A DNA stretch of 64,000 nucleotides from Deltaproteobacteria bacterium (GTDB taxonomy: Bacteria; Desulfobacterota; Dissulfuribacteria; Dissulfuribacterales; QOAL01). This document shows positions 5,402 to 49,102 of the stretch, in pieces. The position numbers were made by a program, and so were the translations under genes. Position 1 is the stretch's first letter; each line of letters starts with the position of its first letter. The stretch lies in NCBI GenBank assembly GCA_026986785.1, contig JALSNW010000019.1, positions 1 through 64,000 of the forward strand. Direction: 5' to 3'. The notes beneath the pieces are model-generated. The model saw nothing but the letters and a program-made list of their open reading frames with translations. It searched no databases and was not told the origin of the DNA.

Positions 5402-6033
5402 TGCTTATCCAAGGTTACGATACGCCTGGTATAAATGAGCAGGCAATGTTTTGCTGGTACGAGTTTCGCTTCCATCTCCATGTCGAGATATCTTGACAAG
5501 GCCTTTTGGGCCGACGGTTCGTCTTTATAGATGATGCCATCCCAATAATAATTAGTCCTGTCTGAGACATGTATGAATGGAATCCTGGGGTCGTTTTTGT
5601 CTGGTTGAGCCATGGTTGGGAAGGTGATCGCTATTGGCCTGTTGGGGCCGAGTGTCTTGATCACATCTGTCACCTGTGAGATGATTTGGGCAAATCTTTG
5701 TGCCTCGGCTGCAGAGACCCAGTCGATGTGAAATCTGTTTTGTTCCACGCCCAGATCTTCCAGTGTGGTAGAGATGATCTCTGAGCGTTTTGCTGCAAGC
5801 TCATTACCTGTACCGTAATGGCACTCGCCAGGATGGCAGCCAAGGATTATGACCCCATCCATCCCGGCCATGAGGGCTTTTATAACCCAATCTGGATGGA
5901 CCATGCAGGAGCACATCACCTCGATGGTCCTGATGGATGCTGGGTATTCTATGTGGGACGTCCCAGCAAGATCTGCACAATTATAACCACACCAGTGGCA
6001 CAAGAATGTCAGGATCTTAGGTAGAGTTTTCAT
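5398..6033 (-). CDS. mvhD: MvhD/FlpD-type delta subunit (2Fe-2S electron-transfer protein)
   Basis: A 211-residue protein of the methyl-viologen-reducing hydrogenase delta family. In characterised complexes it carries electrons from a hydrogenase, formate dehydrogenase or NADH module to HdrA. The hallmark cysteines are present: FLCHWCGYNCADLAG at the N-terminus, VMCSCMVHP near residue 39, and GCHPGECHYGTGN near residue 65. The C-terminal third is longer than a minimal MvhD. No MvhA/MvhG hydrogenase or other electron-input subunit is adjacent, so the donor is unknown. It overlaps hdrA by 17 bp and the downstream HdrCB gene by 4 bp. Confidence 0.88.
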   Translation of the reverse strand: MKTLPKILTFLCHWCGYNCADLAGTSHIEYPASIRTIEVMCSCMVHPDWVIKALMAGMDGVIILGCHPGECHYGTGNELAAKRSEIISTTLEDLGVEQNRFHIDWVSAAEAQRFAQIISQVTDVIKTLGPNRPIAITFPTMAQPDKNDPRIPFIHVSDRTNYYWDGIIYKDEPSAQKALSRYLDMEMEAKLVPAKHCLLIYTRRIVTLDKQ

Positions 6034-9000
6034 TTTGTTTCGTTGAGATAAGGCTTTTTATCTGGGCCAAGATCTGTTCAGGCATAAACCCTGGGATGCC
6101 TATGGCATATTGGGGGCATGAAGAAGTACATGCCCCGCATCCACTGCAAAGGGATGGATCAATTTCCACTATCTTTTTTACTTCATCGAGGTTTACATAT
6201 TCAACGAGCTTGATGGCCTTTTCATGGCAGACATCAAGGCACAATGCACAACCATCGCATCTGGAGATGATGATCTCAGCGGTGATTCTGTCCGGGCTAA
6301 CGCTGTCTTTTGAAAGAAATACCGCAGCCTTACCCGCCGCCGCTGCTGCCTGGCTTATGGATTCTTCCACCTCTTTTGGGTAATGGGCAAGTCCAGCCAC
6401 AAAGAAGCCATCCCTTCTAAGCTCTACAGGCCGAAGTTTTGCATGGGCCTCTTGAAAAAATCCATCCTGGTCCAGGGGGACCTTCAGCTTATTGGAGAGG
6501 GCCTGTTGATTGGCCATGTCCGGTTCAATGGCAGATGCCAGTATGAGGTAATCGGGGTTTATCTCTATCATGTCTCCTGTTAGGGGATCATGGGTGTTGA
6601 TGTTTATTATGGTTTGTGGCCGAGTATCTTGATCGAGCCTTGTGAGAAATCTTACCTCTGGAGGAGAGGCATCTTCGAAGCGAATGGCCTTTATGCCCTT
6701 TTCTCTTGCCCTGTTGTAGAAGTCATCTCTCTGCCCATAGGTCCTCATGTGACGATAAAGGATGTAGATAGACAGGTCTTTTTTGTATGCCTTTAAAAGA
6801 AGTGCTCTGGTTACTGAGTGGGTGCAGCAGACTCGACTGCAGTATGGACGCTCATCGTTACACGAACCGACACATTGAATAAATACCACAGTTTTGGCAT
6901 CATCCAGGAATTCCAGGCCTCCACGCATTATCCTCTCATCAAGTTCTTGATGAGTAAGTACATTGGGATGACGTCCATAGCCAAAGCCGATTGGCCTTGC
7001 CTCCTTGGCTCCACTCGCCACTATCACAGCACCGTGATGAATGGCCTTTACAATGCCCTGGCTGCCGTATCTTACAAAGCTGGTAAGATTTCCCGTCTCT
7101 CCCTGGGTATCCAGGAGATCAGCTTCCATGAAGATATTGATATTTTTCTTGGATGTAACCTCCTTGATGAGGTCGTCAAGGTATGTACTTATGTCAACAC
7201 CGCGCCACGATTTCAAAAGCGCCCTGGCGTTGCCTCCCAAAACGGGGCTTTTTTCCAATAAGCTGACTGTTATATCCCGTTCGGATAGAATTCTTGCAGC
7301 AGTTAGCCCTGAAATACCCCCTCCGATTATCAGGGCATGTTTTGTCACAGGGAAGCGGGGGATATCAATGGGTGCCAGGAGGGCAGCCTTGGCTATAGAC
7401 ATCTGGATCTGATCCATGGCACGATTGGTCGCCCCCTTGGGATCTGAGGAATGCACCCAGGCAGCCTGCTCCCTGATATTGGCGATCTCCAAGAGATTAC
7501 TGTTCAGCCCTGCCTCCTTCATTGCCTTTTTAAACAGCTGCTCGTGTGATTTAGGGCTGCAAGCGGCAATGACGATCCTGTTCAGTCTCTTTGTTCTTAT
7601 GGTTGTGGACAGGCTTTGCAATGCATCCGGTGTACATGCAAAGGGCATGTGTCTGGCCACAATTACTCCATTTATTGTCTTTACTTGATGCAGCAGTGCC
7701 TTGATATCAATGACCTGGCCTATGTTTCGGCCACATGCACATATGAACACCCCGATTCTGGGCCTATCCATTCCAGAGTCGAGCTTGGGGGCATTGGCCT
7801 TTTTTTCACTGTGTCCATGACGTCTATGGGCGGTGATTTTCAAATCACTGCCCAGTAAGGCCGCTGCCGCTGAGCCTTCAATGACAGCCCCCTGGATGGA
7901 TTTTGGGTCCGTATATGTCCCACAGGTATAGATACCAGGCTTGTTGGTCCTGGTTACCTCTAATCCTGTGGCGCTACTAAATCCGAACCCAGTGGTTTTT
8001 ATGCCAAAGAGGTTAGAAAGTCTGTTCAAATCTCCATCCATGCCAAGGCCACAGGAGAGGACAACCATGTCAAAAATTTCTTCCAGTTTTGAGCCTGCCC
8101 CTGTCCATGCCATTATCTTGAGCCTACCTGAGTCTATCTCCTCAAGACAATGGATCTTGCTTGGTATAAGTCTTACCCCGGCTTGGATAGCCTGCCTCAG
8201 ATAGCGTTCAGCACCCTTTTGGTGTGATCTGATATCAATATAGAAAATAGATGTCTCAGGAGGTGGAGACAGGTTCTGTCTTATAGACAAGGCCTGTTTT
8301 ATTGCAGCCATGCAGCAGATGCTGGAACAAAAGGGGCGGTCAACGATATTGGTTTGCCTGGATCCGACGCATTGTATCCAGGCTATTTTTTCAGGTCTTT
8401 GCCTTTTTAGGCTTTCCCAACCAATGCCGGATGGGCTTAACAGAACCTCCATCTCCAGCCCTGTGATAACATGCTTGCTCTGCCCGTATCTGTATGAAGG
8501 CAGGATGGTTGGGTCAAAGGGCTTGGCACCTGGAGAAAGGACAACGGCTTGGGTGTTTACTTCAAATTCCTGGGCTGCCTGATCCAGGTCGATAGCCCCT
8601 CGTGGGCAGATTTTTTCACATTTCCTGCACGTGCCATTGGTGAAAAAGGCGCAGTTTTTCCCATCTATTACATAACCCCTGGGTATGGCATTGGGCGATG
8701 GAAGATAGATGGCCTTTCTATATGTGTCATGAATATAGGACTTATCTGTAACGTTTATGGGACAAACTTTCTCGCAAAGGCCACATCCAATACATTTTTC
8801 AGGGGATACATACCTTGGATTCGTCTTTATCCTTAAATAAAAATCACTATCTTCTTGGCGAACATCAAGCACTGAAGATCTGGTGAATATCTCTATGTTT
8901 GGGCTGGTTCCCAACTGGGCCATCAATGGTGACAGGATTCACGTGGGGCAATCGCCTGTGGGAAAGGTCTTGCTCAGTTGGGACATGAGTCCCCCTATTA

Positions 9001-23257: not shown

Positions 23258-23959
23258 ATGTGTGAAAAATGTGGTTGCCAGACAGGCATGGGTACAAAGC
23301 CAAAGGTTATAGATGTAAACAAAAGTCTTTTCGAGGCCAATGAAAAGATTGGGGAACAGAACAGGCATCACGTGGAACGTATGGGGGCTGTGGCAATCAA
23401 TATGATAAGCAGCCCAGGGGCAGGAAAGACCACTCTACTGGAGGCCACGGCAGATGCCTTGAAAGATTCTGTGACCTTTGGGGTTATCGAAGGAGACATA
23501 GAAACCGAAAAAGACGCCCAAAGGATAAGGGCCAAGGGGATCCCAGCGGTCCAACTCACAACAGGGGGGGCATGTCATCTGGATGCATCCCTTGTCCATC
23601 ATGGAATCCATGAGTTGGAACATATTGTGCCAGGAGGAAGGCTGGATATCATCTTCATAGAAAATGTGGGCAACCTGGTATGTCCGGCCGCCTTTTATCT
23701 CGGAGAGCATAAGAGGATCGTCATGGTTTCGGTGCCAGAAGGTTCTGATAAACCGGCAAAATATCCCAGGGCATTTATTGGCTCGGATCTGTTCGTCATT
23801 TCAAAGGCAGATCTTTTGCCCTATTTTGATTTTTCTGTGGAAGAGGCCATATCCGAGGCCAGGAGGTTGAATCCCTCTATAGATGTCTTGATCATTTCAC
23901 CCAAGTCTGGTCAGGGGATGGATAAATGGCTCGATTATCTTTCTGGAATACTTAAGTGA
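23258..23959 (+). CDS. hypB: Hydrogenase nickel-insertion GTPase HypB
   Basis: A 233-residue GTPase. The high-affinity nickel motif is the N-terminal CEKCGCQ. There is no His-rich storage stretch. Walker A is SSPGAGKTTLLEAT (about residue 52), followed by GDIETEKDAQRI, TGGACHLDA and the guanine-specificity region ISKADLL. It follows hypA by 4 bp and ends the hyp series. Of the usual maturation set, hypF, C, D, E, A, B and the protease are all present here. Confidence 0.95.
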   Translation: MCEKCGCQTGMGTKPKVIDVNKSLFEANEKIGEQNRHHVERMGAVAINMISSPGAGKTTLLEATADALKDSVTFGVIEGDIETEKDAQRIRAKGIPAVQLTTGGACHLDASLVHHGIHELEHIVPGGRLDIIFIENVGNLVCPAAFYLGEHKRIVMVSVPEGSDKPAKYPRAFIGSDLFVISKADLLPYFDFSVEEAISEARRLNPSIDVLIISPKSGQGMDKWLDYLSGILK

Positions 23960-23974
23960 TATCGGCTGGTTGTG

Positions 23975-24487
23975 ATGGTTGACGATTCCAATCTGAGCAA
24001 GGGAGTGATAGTCAGGTTTGTGGTGGTTTACCTGGCGCTCATTGCCATCATGGAGATTTTCCTGGGGCTTCGCTTTTTCCAAAACTACCTGGATTTAAAT
24101 GGGATATATTCGGATACAACAGCCTTCCTTTCTGCCAAGTTGTTGTCTTTTTTGGGAATAAAGGCAACCAGTACAGCAGCCATATTGGATTTGCCAGGTA
24201 GGTCGTTGAGGATATCCTTTGGTTGCAATGGGCTTGAGGCAGTAGTTATTTACGGCTGTGCGGTTATTGCCTATCCTTCTAATTGGCTCTATAGGTTAAA
24301 GGGTCTTCTCTACGGTTTTGTCGTCTTGCTGTTGTTGAATCTTTTAAGGATAGTGGGCCTTGGTTTTACAGTGGTAAAGATGCCCCAGTGGTTTGATTAT
24401 GTGCACTACTATATTGCCCAAGGGCTCATGATCGTAATCGCCTTGGGCCTTTTCATGGTGTGGTTGAAGGGTACACGACATGGCTGA
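23975..24487 (+). CDS. xrtH: Exosortase, XrtH-like
   Basis: About 170 residues with five to six membrane helices and the exosortase catalytic triad: Cys in FGCNGLEAVVIY (about residue 78), Arg in LLNLLRIVGL (about 121), and His in DYVHYYIAQ (about 143). The enzyme cuts C-terminal sorting tails of exported proteins at the membrane. The small size and the adjoining membrane protein fit the exosortase-H type, which is named for IPTLxxWG-type tails. A GTG three bases upstream could also start it. It follows hypB by about 15 bp in the same orientation and overlaps the next gene by 8 bp. The subtype is less sure than the family. Confidence 0.82.
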   Translation: MVDDSNLSKGVIVRFVVVYLALIAIMEIFLGLRFFQNYLDLNGIYSDTTAFLSAKLLSFLGIKATSTAAILDLPGRSLRISFGCNGLEAVVIYGCAVIAYPSNWLYRLKGLLYGFVVLLLLNLLRIVGLGFTVVKMPQWFDYVHYYIAQGLMIVIALGLFMVWLKGTRHG

Positions 24488-25085
24488 GCCCTTTAAGATC
24501 AGGTCGATTATAAGGCCTGTTTTGCTCTTTTGCTTAGTCTATTTCCCTGTACTTGTCGGCTGGGTATATCTGAAACATTTTTATACTCGTCCCCTTGTCT
24601 GCAGTGGAGCAAAGCTTGCCACAATGAGCCTTGATGCCGAATTACATTCTTGCCGATATGAAAGAGGTGGTGTACAGGTGATATTTTCGAGACACGTAGT
24701 TACCCCATTGGGGATCTATCCTGCCAAGTCTGCCGTCTTATTGAGTGACAATAGCTATACATTCAATTTGCCTATAACCTTGGCCATGCTGATAGTGACC
24801 AGTTTGTTGATGCATATTTCCTGGAGATCGTGGAGCAAGGCTGTGGTTGCCCTTGTGATGGGGCATCTAACCTATATCTATGCGTGTTTTCTCTACCGTC
24901 TTCAATTATTTCGTGTTGTTGTCAATGGCAAGGAATTGGTTTCTCATCCCCCTTTTGCCATCCAACTTTTTTGGGATTTTTGCAATAGTATGCTCATCCG
25001 TTTTGAGCCGTTTTTGATACTGATTGTCTTGGTGTTGCTGCACAAGGTAAGTACCATGTCTGCAAGGTCAGCCAAGGAGAAGTGA
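24480..25085 (+). CDS. Exosortase-H-associated membrane protein
   Basis: A 201-residue membrane protein with an N-terminal helix (PVLLFCLVYFPVLVGWVYL), an extracytoplasmic domain of about 80 residues, and three C-terminal helices. Its size, topology and 8-bp overlap with the exosortase match the membrane partner seen beside xrtH in other proteobacteria. The biochemical role of that partner is not established. It closes the 15.4-25.1 kb run of plus-strand genes. Confidence 0.68.
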   Translation: MAEPFKIRSIIRPVLLFCLVYFPVLVGWVYLKHFYTRPLVCSGAKLATMSLDAELHSCRYERGGVQVIFSRHVVTPLGIYPAKSAVLLSDNSYTFNLPITLAMLIVTSLLMHISWRSWSKAVVALVMGHLTYIYACFLYRLQLFRVVVNGKELVSHPPFAIQLFWDFCNSMLIRFEPFLILIVLVLLHKVSTMSARSAKEK

Positions 25086-25166: not shown

Positions 25167-27851
25167 TTATTTTTTCAATGCAATGGCAGGTTCCCATTCA
25201 AGCCATTCGTCTTTGGCCTTTTCATAGAGTTTGAAGTGATGTCCTTGCGAGACAGCTCTTCCCATGTCCTCGCCCTCAGGTGTGGCAAAGGCTATACCTC
25301 CTGCCAAGATTGCCTCAATCGTCTCTGTCTTGACGTCGATACCTGAAAATAGCCCAGCGTCGACCCTTATGCCACTTGCATTCCAAAACCTGGTGTTGGT
25401 CCTTACAAGGGGAGCAAAGGCATCGTAAATATTCAGATGGACCCAAACCATTCTGGCATCAGGGGCCAGTTCATATCCAGTGACTGTGCCCACCTTTATC
25501 CTGCGATAATACACTGGACAGCCCCTTTTCAGAGAACCGAGGCTTTGGGCCTCGGCTATAAGGTTCAAACCTGTTTTTACGACCGGGACCGCAGGTGGGG
25601 CTGCCAGTCCTTGGAGGTCGGTGCATCTGGGGCCTGGTCCAGCCTCAACAGCTATATATGGCCCGGTAATTGCTGTTTCCAGGTTTCTTATTCCTGACAG
25701 GCTGAACTCAGGATATACGACCCAGATCTTTGCCCCTGTGGTAAAGATGGATGAGGCGGATTTCTTTATAAGGGCCTTTACCAATATGGAATCCATGTGG
25801 TTCTCAAATCCGATATCTTGTACGTGGCCTATCTCAATGCCCTGATGCCGAATCTTTGAATTTACTTTTATTTTTTGACCTTTTGGAAAATGTATCGTCA
25901 CAGCTACATAGTCTGCTGCAAGGGCATCGTCCAGACTGTTGTAAAGCCTGAACACCTGTCCTGTCTTGATCCGCTGGCCTGATTTCTTGTGCCCTGGATT
26001 GATGAAGGAGATGGCGCCCATCATTATAGAGGCCAAGGGAGAGGCCTGGATGTCGAGGCCTGTCCTGATACTCCCCTTGACCTTTATGCCACTTGCAAGA
26101 TAGAAACGGGTCGTCTTGTGGATGAGAGCAAGGTATTTCTTTTCCAAAAAGACAGTGACTATGATCTTGTCGTGTTTCTCTTCGAGGGATACACCTGTTA
26201 CCTCTCCCACCTTTACTTTCTTGTAGTAAACAGGGCTTCCTTCAGAGACCGACACAGGCTGAGTTGTCTCGAGTTTTACGAATTTACCTGCTGGCTTCAG
26301 CCCAGGTGCATGTTTGACTGCTTCCTGGAAATTTTTGAATAATTTGAATCGCTGCCCGGGTTTGGCAGGTTTTAGTCTCTTTCCATATAGCTGATGTGGG
26401 TAATCAAAGGCTATCCCCCCGGCCAGGATCGCCCTTATGGAATCTGTCTTCAGATTCACTTCAGCAGGTGTTACCCTCAGGTTCATGCCGGAATAATTCC
26501 AGAATACACAGTGTCTGTTCATGAGGCGTACATATCTATCGTAGATGATAAAGACGAGGTCCACACTGTTGTCTGGATTTAGATCATAACTGGCGACCTC
26601 ACCCACCTGGATATGCTTGAAGAGGATTGGGGCCCCTGGTTCAAGGGAGTTCAGGTCTGTGGATTCCAGCCTGTAAAATGTCCCATTTTTAAGTATCTCC
26701 TTGGAGTGGCTTCCCTGTATTACAAACTCATAACAGGGTTCTCCCTCTCCAGGAACGAAGGTGATATAGGGGCCTGAGACCAAGGCTCCCAGGTTCTGGA
26801 TGCCGTTTACCCCTACCTTTGGCCTTATGATCCAAAATCTCGTACCCTTTTTCAGGATGGGTTTTGCCATGGGGTCCAGGAGAAGATGGGCTGTAACCTT
26901 GTATTTTCTATCGTTTCGGTTGAGGGTGATCTTTTTGATCCTACCAACCTCCAGACCTCGGTAGATCACCTTTGTCAGGTCTTCCACCATGTCCTCCCCG
27001 GTCTCCATTTTCAGTGTTACCTTTATGCCGTATTCTGCTGCTTCATAGTCTTTGTATAATTTGAATACATGGCCATCTTCGGCAGGGGGCTCATCCATGA
27101 GTACCTCTGGCGTATAAAAGCTAATGCCTCCATTTATGAGGGTACTTATGGATTCCATGTGGAATTTTATGCCGCTCAGGCCACCAGAAAGGGTTATGCC
27201 GCTGGCATTCCAAAATCTGGATCCGGGTTTGACAAGATGTCTATATTCTGGCTCTATATAGGCATTGATTATGATACCCTCGCTGCCTTCCATGGTATAA
27301 TCTTGGACAGAGCCTACTTTTATATCCCTGTAATATATATATGAGCCTCGTTGTATGGAGTTCAGGGCATCGGTTTTCAGCTTGAAGTGTAGGCCTGGGG
27401 CCGTCTCTGGTACTGGAGGTGGTTCGTCGAGCCCATAGAATTCACGGCATGGCACCTTTGATATCCCCGGTTGAACCGCTATATAGGAGCCTGAGAGAAG
27501 GGTCTCGAGTCCACTGATCCTCCCTGCAGTGATCTCTGGCCGGACTATCCAGAATTTTACGTCTTGGACCAGCCCCTCTTTCGTCTTTGGGCTCATTGCC
27601 AAGACAACGGATACCGAGTCCAGTCCCTTGTCCACGTTGATCTCTTTGACAAATCCTATAGGCAGGCCTTTATACATGACCTTGGTCTTGCCGGCAGTGA
27701 TCCCTTCGGCACTGTGAAAGTGCACCACCACCGTTATGGGCCTTTCAGTTATCCCTCTATAGAGGAGCCATAGACCTATTGCCAGGGCAATTGCCGGTAG
27801 TATCCAGATGGGTGAAATCCCTTTTTTCTTTTTGGTAACTGGTTTTTCCAT
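25167..27851 (-). CDS. letB: LetB/YebT-type seven-MCE-domain intermembrane lipid transport protein
   Basis: About 894 residues: an N-terminal membrane anchor (ILPAIALAIGLWLLY) and then seven MCE repeats. Each is marked by a segment such as VMYKGLPIGFVKEI, YYRDIKVGSV, VIYRGLEVGRI, LFKHIQVGEV, YYKKVKVGEV, IRHQGIEIGHV or YYRRIKVGTV. Seven is the number in E. coli LetB, which stacks into a tunnel carrying lipids across the periplasm; PqiB has three. I start at the ATG at 27851, 7 bases past the stop of the upstream LetA-half gene. An extended frame to 27914 would overlap that gene. It is cotranscribed with the two PqiA-domain genes. Confidence 0.9.
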   Translation of the reverse strand: MEKPVTKKKKGISPIWILPAIALAIGLWLLYRGITERPITVVVHFHSAEGITAGKTKVMYKGLPIGFVKEINVDKGLDSVSVVLAMSPKTKEGLVQDVKFWIVRPEITAGRISGLETLLSGSYIAVQPGISKVPCREFYGLDEPPPVPETAPGLHFKLKTDALNSIQRGSYIYYRDIKVGSVQDYTMEGSEGIIINAYIEPEYRHLVKPGSRFWNASGITLSGGLSGIKFHMESISTLINGGISFYTPEVLMDEPPAEDGHVFKLYKDYEAAEYGIKVTLKMETGEDMVEDLTKVIYRGLEVGRIKKITLNRNDRKYKVTAHLLLDPMAKPILKKGTRFWIIRPKVGVNGIQNLGALVSGPYITFVPGEGEPCYEFVIQGSHSKEILKNGTFYRLESTDLNSLEPGAPILFKHIQVGEVASYDLNPDNSVDLVFIIYDRYVRLMNRHCVFWNYSGMNLRVTPAEVNLKTDSIRAILAGGIAFDYPHQLYGKRLKPAKPGQRFKLFKNFQEAVKHAPGLKPAGKFVKLETTQPVSVSEGSPVYYKKVKVGEVTGVSLEEKHDKIIVTVFLEKKYLALIHKTTRFYLASGIKVKGSIRTGLDIQASPLASIMMGAISFINPGHKKSGQRIKTGQVFRLYNSLDDALAADYVAVTIHFPKGQKIKVNSKIRHQGIEIGHVQDIGFENHMDSILVKALIKKSASSIFTTGAKIWVVYPEFSLSGIRNLETAITGPYIAVEAGPGPRCTDLQGLAAPPAVPVVKTGLNLIAEAQSLGSLKRGCPVYYRRIKVGTVTGYELAPDARMVWVHLNIYDAFAPLVRTNTRFWNASGIRVDAGLFSGIDVKTETIEAILAGGIAFATPEGEDMGRAVSQGHHFKLYEKAKDEWLEWEPAIALKK

Positions 27852-27858
27852 CTTCGAG

Positions 27859-28533
27859 CTATTCCTCTTCTCTATTGGGTGGGATGCACGTGTCCCAGAT
27901 GAGCCTGGTATCAAATGTTATGGCAGCCAACATGGTTGAGATGACCACGCCGCAGAAATATGTGGCGGCGGATGCTGCCGAGATAGTGGAAAAGAATCCA
28001 AAATTTACCAGGACTGTCAGGAGTGCTATCACAAAGATATCCAGCATGGACCATCTGCCTATGAATTCGATAAATCTGAACATCATGGTCTTGTGCCTGA
28101 GCCATGTCTTCCATCTGAAATGGATGGACAGAAGAATCAGCATTATGCCGGCGATCTTGAATACAGGCACCAAGACGCTGGCTGTGAGAATGACGATACC
28201 GATCCCATAGGAGCCTTCCTTGAAAAAATATATGATGCCGTCCATTATTGTGGAGTATTCTTGGGAGCCGAGATAGTCCACCTGCATGATAGGGAGAAGA
28301 TTGGCAGGGAATAGTAGGATGAGAGATGTTAGCACCAGTGCCCATGTATAGGTTATGCTGCCTGGTTTCCTCGTGTGTACCGTGGCACAGCACCTGGGAC
28401 AGATGGTGGCTTCATCATAGTCATGGCAAGAGACGACCTTGTGGCAATAATGGCAAATCATGAGGCCTGCCTCTTTTCCAGTAACGGGGCCTTGTCCTAC
28501 ATTGCAGGCGATATCGTTTTGTCTGTTGTTCAT
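27859..28533 (-). CDS. PqiA/LetA half protein, second domain
   Basis: A 224-residue membrane protein with one PqiA domain. A zinc-ribbon-like region (CHYCHKVVSCHD ... CPRC, residues 27-49) precedes four membrane helices, including ALVLTSLILLFPANLLPIMQV. PqiA/LetA are inner-membrane partners that feed lipid to the MCE tunnel. E. coli LetA holds two such domains in one chain of about 427 residues; here they are separate genes overlapping by 4 bp. This one lies next to letB. Confidence 0.85.
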   Translation of the reverse strand: MNNRQNDIACNVGQGPVTGKEAGLMICHYCHKVVSCHDYDEATICPRCCATVHTRKPGSITYTWALVLTSLILLFPANLLPIMQVDYLGSQEYSTIMDGIIYFFKEGSYGIGIVILTASVLVPVFKIAGIMLILLSIHFRWKTWLRHKTMMFRFIEFIGRWSMLDIFVIALLTVLVNFGFFSTISAASAATYFCGVVISTMLAAITFDTRLIWDTCIPPNREEE

Positions 28534-35298: not shown

Positions 35299-35462
35299 AA
35301 AAAATGGAATAAATTTTCTCCATGATTCCCTGAGGTCTATTTTTAACTTATTTATCCGGCATTTTTGTCTCGAACAGGCCAATTAAATGGTATGTCTTAT
35401 GCGATAGCTAAAGTTAGGTTTGATATCAAAACATGTCAATGACATCAGTTGAGGAAATAATC

Positions 35463-36245
35463 ATGAAAAACAACAAGTGCAATAGAAAGCCTTTTTCCTT
35501 AAGTATCATGATATGGCTCCTCCTGCTGATGTCAGCAGATAATGCCTTCACTCTACAATATACAATGAATGTTTTGACTTTTGATGATCTTGGTGTCTCC
35601 AGTCAGGCCCCAGGCCCTTTATCCGATAATTATGGAGGTTTTCACTGGAGCCATGCCTATACCATCCAAGGTCCTGATCCATCGATAAGCTCTACTTGTC
35701 CAGATTGGACAGGGGCATCTATCCTGGATATGGACGTTTCTAACGAGGTGGGCAAGGCAATTACTATTTCACGAGACGAAACCTTTACATGGCTTGGGGC
35801 TTCCTTCTCTGTCCCTTGTCTTGGCTCGATGGAAATCACAATAGCTGGTTACCTTGATGGTATGCTTGCCTTCTCAACCAATCTCATCCTTAACGAGCTG
35901 TGCCCGCAAGATCTCAGGGTCTTCTGGCCCAATATCGATGAACTTGTGATCTATGTGTCCGATGAAGATACACTCGGTAGGTTCACCATGGATGAGTTCA
36001 GATACGCATTGGGATGTAATAGTCCTTTTTGCAAGGCGTGTAGTGGTCTCGTGGCAAGAACAACCAATTCTTCTCCAGGTGGTTCCCCCGACTATTCCCC
36101 CTGGAATCCTCCATCCAATCCACCAGTCAATCCTCCAGGTAACCCTCCGCCAGTGCCAGAGCCTTCTACTTTTGTCTTGACGGGTGTTGGCATTGCCCTT
36201 TTGTTCATGATAAGGCTAAAAAAGCACTTAGCAGGTCTATTTTGA
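35463..36245 (+). CDS. PEP-CTERM-like exported protein
   Basis: About 260 residues: a signal peptide (SLSIMIWLLLLMSADNAFT), a beta-rich domain beginning LTFDDLG, a Pro/Asn-rich linker (NPPSNPPVNPPGNPPP), then the sorting tail VPEPSTFVLTGVGIALLFMI and a basic end (RLKKH). That tail is the PEP-CTERM layout, in which an exosortase cuts at the motif after export. I start at the ATG at 35463 because GAGG lies 8 bases upstream; the frame is open to an earlier ATG at 35433. The only exosortase in view is XrtH-like (23975), whose known tails differ, so this is probably handled by another enzyme or by relaxed specificity. Confidence 0.8.
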   Translation: MKNNKCNRKPFSLSIMIWLLLLMSADNAFTLQYTMNVLTFDDLGVSSQAPGPLSDNYGGFHWSHAYTIQGPDPSISSTCPDWTGASILDMDVSNEVGKAITISRDETFTWLGASFSVPCLGSMEITIAGYLDGMLAFSTNLILNELCPQDLRVFWPNIDELVIYVSDEDTLGRFTMDEFRYALGCNSPFCKACSGLVARTTNSSPGGSPDYSPWNPPSNPPVNPPGNPPPVPEPSTFVLTGVGIALLFMIRLKKHLAGLF

Positions 36246-47865: not shown

Positions 47866-48104
47866 GGGGCGTAGGTAGCGAGCTTGAGCCAGCTTCAGCC
47901 TACTTATGCCTCCCAACCAGCATGGAGTCGGTCTTTGGGAGCATCTAAATGTTGACAGGGGAAGAAAGTTGTTCTAAAAGAATATTATTTCACATGTAAA
48001 TATCATGATGAAAAGATATGTGCGAGGTCTGGGTGGTTGGAGATCTGCTTCTTCATATCTCCTGTAAATGGTATCTTTTAGCACGATATAAGGAGGGATA
48101 TAGG

Positions 48105-48863
48105 ATGAAAAGGGGTTGTGGGATATTGTGTTTTTTGTCTTTAATGGTTGCAGTTGGTGTGACTCCTGTTGGTGCAGCCATAATAGCACCTTCATATGAG
48201 TCGAGTTGTCATGCAGAAAATAGTCTTGGCTTACAGGATGATGGGCCTTATCATGCCCGTGCGGGAAGTGATAACAATTATGCAGAATCAATGGTTCAGG
48301 GTTGGGGCCTTGGTAGCCAGGCACACCTCGTAATGGGCAATGATGAGACGTTTTCTGGCAGCACCTTTTCTTTCTCTCAGTTTTCCCAGCCGTTTTCTAT
48401 AACAGATTCTGGTAAGGCCTGGATAGAATTTTCTTATGAGGGCAGCCTCTTGGTCTCTGATCCCAACTCAGGCCTTTCTGGAGAATACACGGCCTATTTT
48501 TATATCATCGCAGATGATACCTTTGAGCATTCCAATGGAGTAACTGGTATGATCCAAAAAGTGACCTCCATTCCATATGGAGATATATTTTATCTAAACT
48601 ATGATTTTTCTGATGAACAGGTTGGAGAGATTTTCACTGTGACATTGACCTTGGAGACAGGAATATCATCAGAGAAAGGAGTCAGTTATTCAGGCCAGGG
48701 TCATGCGGAACTTGTGGCCGATTTTTATAATACAGGCCAAATAATAGGCCTTGGTGGAGGAATACAGCCTCTGAATCCTGTGCCAATTCCAGCATCGGTA
48801 TGGCTTTTGGCCACAGGCCTTGCAGGTCTAATGGGGATTGGGATCAGGAGAAGATCTTTATAA
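48105..48863 (+). CDS. Exported protein with VPIPA-type C-terminal sorting tail
   Basis: About 252 residues: signal peptide (GILCFLSLMVAVGVTPVGAA), a beta-rich middle of unknown function, and a C-terminal tail VPIPASVWLLATGLAGLMGI ending in a basic IRRRSL. The tail is the VPLPA-CTERM variant of the PEP-CTERM family. GGAGGG about 7 bases before the ATG at 48105 fixes this start; the frame is open to 48018 but lacks a site there. The protein is probably surface-exposed or attached to extracellular polysaccharide. Confidence 0.8.
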   Translation: MKRGCGILCFLSLMVAVGVTPVGAAIIAPSYESSCHAENSLGLQDDGPYHARAGSDNNYAESMVQGWGLGSQAHLVMGNDETFSGSTFSFSQFSQPFSITDSGKAWIEFSYEGSLLVSDPNSGLSGEYTAYFYIIADDTFEHSNGVTGMIQKVTSIPYGDIFYLNYDFSDEQVGEIFTVTLTLETGISSEKGVSYSGQGHAELVADFYNTGQIIGLGGGIQPLNPVPIPASVWLLATGLAGLMGIGIRRRSL

Positions 48864-48865
48864 GA

Positions 48866-49102
48866 CTACCATTTTACCAGGGCTAGTAGTATGAGTCCAG
48901 TGAGCAACAAAGAGGTGTAGCCATGTGTTGGTACAGTAGAAGTTGCAACAGGGATTTGGCAGGGAGTCATGAGTAATAAGATATTTTCAACGTTATTCTT
49001 GATGGCCTCCTTCAGGGCATCAAGCAATCGTTGTAGCTGCCCTTGAATTTCACATTGATGTCTATACAAGGCCTGTGTAATCTTCAGGCATATCTGTGCC
49101 AT
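48866..49102 (-). CDS. Small protein with a VPTHG-helix C-terminus
   Basis: A 78-residue frame 22 bp after lptE in the same orientation. An amphipathic N-terminal half is followed by TSTVPTHGYTS and a single hydrophobic helix (LLLTGLILLALV) ending KW. The tail has the order of an exosortase sorting signal (short VPT motif, helix, basic residue) and recalls IPTL-type tails, but there is no signal peptide and no clear ribosome-binding site. It may be a real small membrane protein, a gene remnant, or chance. Confidence 0.42.
   Translation of the reverse strand: MAQICLKITQALYRHQCEIQGQLQRLLDALKEAIKNNVENILLLMTPCQIPVATSTVPTHGYTSLLLTGLILLALVKW

Follow-up and report, generated by a model that had tools for sequence, protein, structure and literature searches.

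An exosortase H (XrtH)-type system would comprise a short integral-membrane cysteine transpeptidase/protease and its regular membrane partner. The steps of cleavage, release and transfer ascribed to it derive from the exosortase model proposed in PMC1569441, whose available text also describes Cys-x-Gly, Asn-x-x-Arg and a downstream His as the motifs of EpsH. The closest described systems to the locus studied here are exosortase H (XrtH; TIGR04177), the XrtH-associated membrane proteins (NF041730), and the IPTL-CTERM targets (TIGR04174). PMC8671808 reports an S-layer protein with a predicted IPTL-CTERM domain, which fits a surface role for such targets. No paper on XrtH biochemistry was found among the open-access papers searched.

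We analysed a window, meaning the whole stretch of 64,000 nucleotides, together with the rest of its genome and the genomes of relatives. In our best explanation, which we hold with good confidence, the window encodes an XrtH-type system whose likely cargo is at least two proteins encoded elsewhere in the genome (on contigs C47 and C16), the VPEP and VPIPx tails of the same genome belong to the EpsH/XrtD class, and the position of the exosortase behind hypB is specific to the lineage. This corrects the tempting reading of a hydrogenase-linked exosortase with VPEP targets.

The exosortase and its partner membrane protein

Two overlapping genes form the core of the locus:

23975..24487 (GTG start 23972), + strand: membrane enzyme of the exosortase H (XrtH) type, 170 aa counted from the ATG (TIGR04177, conserved motifs)
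24480..25085, + strand: XrtH-associated membrane protein, 201 aa, predicted to form five helices, each at least 14 residues long, and a small beta region (NF041730, conserved position)

The exosortase-H-like pair named in the original prediction was confirmed. The exosortase reading frame is real and located on the + strand at 23972/23975-24487. Its product (P0001) scored above the cut-offs of PF09721 (34.4 bits, cut-off 25.7) and TIGR04178 (52 bits, cut-off 23) and contained the Cys-x-Gly/Asn-x-x-Arg/His motifs, which places it in the exosortase/archaeosortase superfamily. The putative catalytic residues C84 (CNG), N122-x-x-R125, and H144 (P0001 numbering) were invariant in 15/15 aligned exosortases. 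TIGR04177 was the top NCBIfam subtype for P0001 at 71.1 bits, below its cut-off of 86, and we therefore call the enzyme XrtH-type, a diverged relative and not a certified member. The same subtype was best for 8/9 relatives scanned singly, which covered 9 of the 14 non-window members of the family alignment; the ninth (L055) was nearest to XrtM. Two exosortases from the same order exceeded the TIGR04177 cut-off (94.5 and 90 bits). Judged by its sequence, the window exosortase is of the XrtH type and a further member of an already known exosortase class.

A search for related loci with P0001 alone returned 50 pattern matches and no relative. We built an exosortase profile (A2) from the 15-member family alignment, which was more sensitive than PF09721; the exosortases of G044:C28, G050, and G090 (L051, L054, L056) were omitted from this and from the partner profile (A3) as too diverged or oddly framed. 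PF09721 found one exosortase only in the whole window genome (2.59 Mb, 52 contigs, 99.2% complete), and A2 again returned the window enzyme as the single exosortase on these contigs. The AlphaFold2 model of the enzyme had a pLDDT of 88.2 and gave no match at E<=0.001 in a fold search of the PDB. A sequence search of solved structures with A2 gave three matches at E 0.94 to 1, which we took as chance.

The start of the partner gene overlaps the end of the exosortase gene by 8 bp. Its product matched NF041730 at 26.7 bits (E 3.9e-6; cut-off 35 not reached), and this model matched 13/14 partners at E<=0.1. The partner lay directly 3' of the exosortase in all 11 other family genomes whose orthologues were read. 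A3, which also leaves out the L055 partner, matched the next gene in 68/72 loci from named genomes, whose records carry titles such as Deltaproteobacteria, Nitrospirae, Dadabacteria, and Campylobacterales, and one of the four loci without a match ends at a contig edge. The exosortase and its partner are one widely conserved unit. The AlphaFold2 model of the partner (pLDDT 87.6) had no PDB match at E<=0.001, and its best structural alignment, VIA-align with a Z of 5.1, was too low to mean much.

Candidate cargo with IPTL-type tails

Relatives with the pair had IPTL-type tails of the form VPT-xxx-WG (VPTLSEWG, VPTMNQWG, VPSLGEWG). In the window genome, TIGR04174 gave no match over its cut-off, so that no IPTL-CTERM member was identified with that model, and the DNA pattern [IVM]P[TS]xxxWG gave six matches (4 in the reversed control), none of them a C-terminal tail. 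A profile of 15 IPTL-type tails from relatives, none from the window genome (A1), ranked first a C47 frame ending ...VPTFDAFGAIILVFLLALAACIKTRDVF (20.3 bits, E 0.0019) and second a C16 frame ending ...VPAMNGFGAATLSMLLLLAGVYAWRKKAA (17.4 bits, E 0.016), while the third-ranked match had an E of 0.41. These tails lie outside the window and read VPTFDAFG (C47) and VPAMNGFG (C16), with F in place of W. A further tail profile (A4) contains both of them, which makes its E-values for them circular and leaves A1 as the only test. TIGR04174 matched neither tail in searches to E 10 and to E 0.01.

The bodies of the two proteins belong to the same families as those of the relatives. Without its last 40 residues, the C47 protein aligned over 1143 aa with a G009 protein that has the tail VPTLSQWG (61% identity). 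The C16 protein, trimmed likewise, aligned over 205 aa with a G006 protein that has the tail VPAMDGFG (91% identity) and over 237 aa with a G009 protein that has the tail VPTMNQWG (40% identity). In the wider sense given by the relatives' tail profile and shared protein families, IPTL-type targets are present in the window genome. The C47 protein is large, with DUF11 repeats and isopeptide-forming fimbrial domains, and the C16 protein contains a choice-of-anchor U domain (choice_anch_U, 45.4 bits, cut-off 32). Tetranucleotide distances to the window were 0.16 for the C47 stretch and 0.14 for the C16 stretch, compared with 0.09-0.10 for pieces of the window, 0.11 to 0.20 for other stretches of the genome, and 0.21-0.23 for five foreign loci. 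The C47 gene runs off its contig end. The C16 gene has a signal-peptide-like start in a different frame from the body, a mutation or a sequence error.

As relatives of the same surface proteins, the C47 and C16 proteins are likely the cargo of the window exosortase; they show that loss of the signature tryptophan can hide a likely XrtH target from the standard IPTL model. The original prediction had described the candidate targets as not of the textbook IPTL type. This stands in that nothing matched TIGR04174 over its cut-off, and gives way in that two W-less IPTL-type tails occur outside the window; with these, the theme of odd targets mostly dissolves. The genome that had been named as contrary to the prediction, one full of IPTL tails and with another exosortase, was found only in its first half and in reduced form, with two diverged IPTL-type tails and no second exosortase.

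As a separate observation, the C16 gene (L147, about 330-1385) is 91% identical to the gene of G006, a genome of another genus, versus ~35-39% for the exosortase genes, which suggests recent transfer.

IPTL-type tails and the pair occurred together. Within the family, such tails were found in 10/12 genomes with the pair and 0/7 without it (Fisher p=7e-4), with the carrier counts biased upward because A1 was trained on carriers' tails. TIGR04174 at its cut-off matched 6/12 carriers and 0/7 non-carriers (p=0.044) and, across 99 genomes, 10/16 genomes with an A2 match of at least 185 bits versus 5/83 others (p=1e-6); the genomes are related, so all of these p-values overstate and are a guide only. 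The carriers without an IPTL-type tail were G003 (55% complete) and G017 (90%). An IPTL match over the cut-off with no A2 match was found in G035, G037, and G040, and G050 and G090 had more distant exosortases (A2 63 and 89 bits). G034 combined an IPTL tail with what PF09721 showed as a full-length exosortase only; an XrtH-type gene (G034:C193, L233) that PF09721 had missed was picked up by the family profile A2, at 219 bits, after the IPTL tail had flagged the genome.

Two of the diverged loci had unusual arrangements. L054 (G050:C344) contained, at ~5459-7033, a 524-aa frame (577 stop to stop) with two tandem exosortase-like segments, a possible double exosortase, whose A2 matches (5534-5950 and 6011-6397) were near IPTL-tailed proteins. 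At L051 (G044:C28, 2236-3211), a second short exosortase is followed by a different neighbour of 148 aa; the visible end of the gene adjoining this exosortase has a different hydrophobic tail.

VPEP and VPIPx tails

The window itself contains three proteins whose ends drew attention:

35433..36245, + strand: protein with a PEP-CTERM tail, VPEPSTFVLTGVGIALLFMIRLKK, and a candidate orphan substrate for exosortases of the EpsH/XrtD type (TIGR02595, 17.6 bits, cut-off 16)
48018..48863, + strand: protein with a VPLPA-CTERM tail, VPIPASVWLLATGLAGLMGIGIRRR, and a candidate orphan substrate for exosortases of the XrtD type (TIGR03370, 28.1 bits, cut-off 25.35)
48866..49102, - strand: 78-aa ORF with a 'VPTHG' end, unconvincing as a sorting tail (read by eye)

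All three had been put forward as candidate targets (VPEPS, VPIPA, and VPTHG). The first two are genuine PEP-CTERM-class tails. The VPTHG ORF was rejected because, read by eye, it lacks a signal peptide and its end, LVKW, has no basic cluster. As targets of the window exosortase, the VPEPS and VPIPA tails were probably misassigned, given the XrtH-type tails with F for W elsewhere in the genome.

Six PEP-CTERM-class tails were found in the window genome (two VPEPAT, one VPEPST, two VPIPAS, and one VPIPGS), five of them above the TIGR02595 cut-off. Both VPIPAS tails exceeded the VPLPA-CTERM cut-off (28.1 and 29.2 bits), and the VPIPGS tail was below the cut-offs of both models (TIGR02595 13 bits; VPLPA-CTERM 21.7 vs 25.35). 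Among the genomes compared, TIGR02595 tails (E<=0.01) occurred in 33/34 with a full-length exosortase and in 6/11 with short exosortases only, versus 12/54 without any PF09721 match; genomes were sorted here by PF09721, so that G014 counts as full-length through a fragment and G034 as full-length despite the short exosortase found later. No XrtD-type or other second exosortase was found in the window genome with PF09721 or A2 (52 contigs, 99.2% complete). The VPEP/VPIPA tails are probably not targets of the window XrtH-type enzyme. All six VPEP/VPIPx tails fit EpsH/XrtD-type exosortases and are probably leftovers or else served by an enzyme in an assembly gap, and we consider it most likely that the EpsH/XrtD-type enzyme was lost from the window lineage, or is absent from the assembly, while the tails stayed.

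The second of these options, that an EpsH/XrtD-type exosortase exists in the organism, is missing from the 52-contig assembly and serves the VPEP/VPLPA tails, is possible but on the unlikely side. In G001, a sister genome, an XrtD scored 564 bits (cut-off 400) and TIGR02595 gave 18 matches at E<=1; the window assembly, though 99.2% complete, is not closed. However, neither PF09721 nor A2 detected an exosortase fragment in it, and G006, G009, G016, and G018 (91-99% complete) show the same combination, where chance gaps in all of them would be unlikely.

We think it improbable, more so than a missing enzyme, that XrtH turned generalist after the loss of the EpsH/XrtD-type enzyme, such that the family's single XrtH and its partner took over three tail classes (VPxxx[W/F]G, VPEP, and VPLPA) and the six tails are real substrates. 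If true, an XrtH of this breadth would depart from the usual rule that each exosortase type is paired with a single tail type. XrtH is the sole exosortase found in the window genome, G006, G009, G016, and G018, all of which keep well-formed VPEP/IPEP tails, and the higher frequency of TIGR02595 tails in short-only genomes than in those without an exosortase (p=0.058) points the same way. Yet such tails track full-length enzymes far better, they persist in the 12 genomes without a PF09721 match, including the family members G013 (6 tails) and G015 (2), and they were absent at E<=0.01 from the XrtH-only genomes G002 and G010. Short-only genomes outside the family (G045, G050, G086) had none either (0/3). 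Chlorobium tepidum, described in the available text of PMC1569441 with two PEP-CTERM proteins and no EpsH, offers a precedent against this reading, and remnant tails were considered there.

We keep to the reading of tails that outlasted, or are separated by the assembly from, their EpsH/XrtD-type enzyme. Natural genomes with well-formed VPEP tails beside XrtH alone, or with no exosortase found, provide a clean setting for testing tail specificity and for following what becomes of orphan tails. One further genome, G053 (98% complete), had six TIGR02595 tails at E<=0.01 and no PF09721 match, with either orphan tails or an unrecognised sorting enzyme.

Genomic neighbourhood and comparison with described systems

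Upstream of the conserved unit lies a hydrogenase maturation gene:

23258..23959, + strand: hypB, upstream neighbour and last gene of the hyp cluster, outside the conserved unit (sequence match, comparison of loci)

The pair does follow hypB by about 15 bp on the same strand, as first described, with 15 bp from the hypB end (23959) to the ATG and 12 bp to the GTG. The gap itself contained no promoter-like or terminator-like site. A terminator-like site occurs inside hypB at 23806-23820, and such sites were not above chance here (5 vs 3.4 in shuffles).

The hyp cluster adjoined the pair in only 2/11 testable family carriers, the window genome and G002, and two genes separate hypB from the pair in the latter. 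In G001, of the same genus, the 11 kb read around the pair contained no hyp genes; the pair there converges on a pqiB-like gene, as does the window pair on its downstream side. G003, also of this genus, shares the pqiB-like neighbour, but only 87 bp of its contig precede the exosortase, and it was left out of the hyp count. The pair followed a ribF-like gene, assigned by eye from the sequence, in G006, G009, G011, G014, G016, G017, and G018, and another gene in G010. Among the 72 named loci, which had at least 2 kb of upstream sequence in 54 cases and at least 3 kb in 46, a hyp cluster was found at one (L190, apparently the G002 record itself), or 1/54 of those with at least 2 kb upstream. L193 (HypF 27%) and L211 (HypE 22.5%) were rejected as hyp clusters, their weak matches being read as distant paralogues.

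The convergent gene on the downstream side of the window pair encodes a 915-aa PqiB-like MCE protein (25167-27914, - strand; NF008070 590 bits, cut-off 525), and this neighbour recurs in G001 and G003.

The position behind hypB is confined to this lineage and appears to be a local accident; a conserved functional link between the pair and the hydrogenase is not indicated. The suggestion that surface sorting and hydrogen metabolism are coexpressed holds to the extent that co-transcription of hypB and the exosortase is plausible in this species, and fails as a functional theme. That the pair works with the hydrogenase, its expression with hyp tying surface sorting to hydrogen metabolism, is very improbable: the short same-strand gap free of promoter-like and terminator-like sites speaks for it, and the rare adjacency, the two intervening genes in G002, and the terminator-like site within hypB, though of a kind found at chance frequency, speak against it. 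Among the open-access papers searched, none was found to link exosortases with hydrogenase or hypB.

In the XrtH-type system that we favour, exported surface proteins would halt in the inner membrane through a C-terminal helix with a basic end, and XrtH, at the periplasmic face, would recognise the motif VP(T/S/A)xxx(W/F)G. Cys84 would attack the motif, presumably assisted by Arg125 and His144, after which the helix would be released and the protein handed to an acceptor en route to the cell surface. The partner may aid substrate or acceptor binding, a role that we infer from its conservation alone since its predicted fold has no match in the PDB at E<=0.001.

The window enzyme resembles exosortase H in its length, its C-x-G, N-x-x-R, and His motifs, its top subtype, and the joint occurrence of the pair with IPTL-type tails in relatives, and differs in scoring below the TIGR04177 cut-off. 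Other short exosortases also matched P0001, namely archaeosortase B (TIGR04144, 68.7 bits), XrtX (NF046081, 63.3 bits), and XrtM (TIGR04300, 58.6 bits), but far under their cut-offs of 150, 170, and 125. EpsH, in the available text of PMC1569441, has an H-x3-G motif, whereas the window exosortase has H-x5-G. Like the NF041730 proteins, the partner lies directly downstream of the exosortase, is of similar size, and matches the model over nearly its full length, though under its cut-off. Unlike the IPTL-CTERM targets of TIGR04174, the tails of the candidate cargo carry F for W and escape the model. XrtD (TIGR04152), which is VPLPA-CTERM-specific and by name the expected enzyme for the VPIPA tails of the window, is present in G001 and not found in the window genome; at 533 aa in G001 and with an EpsI domain, it is longer than the window enzyme.
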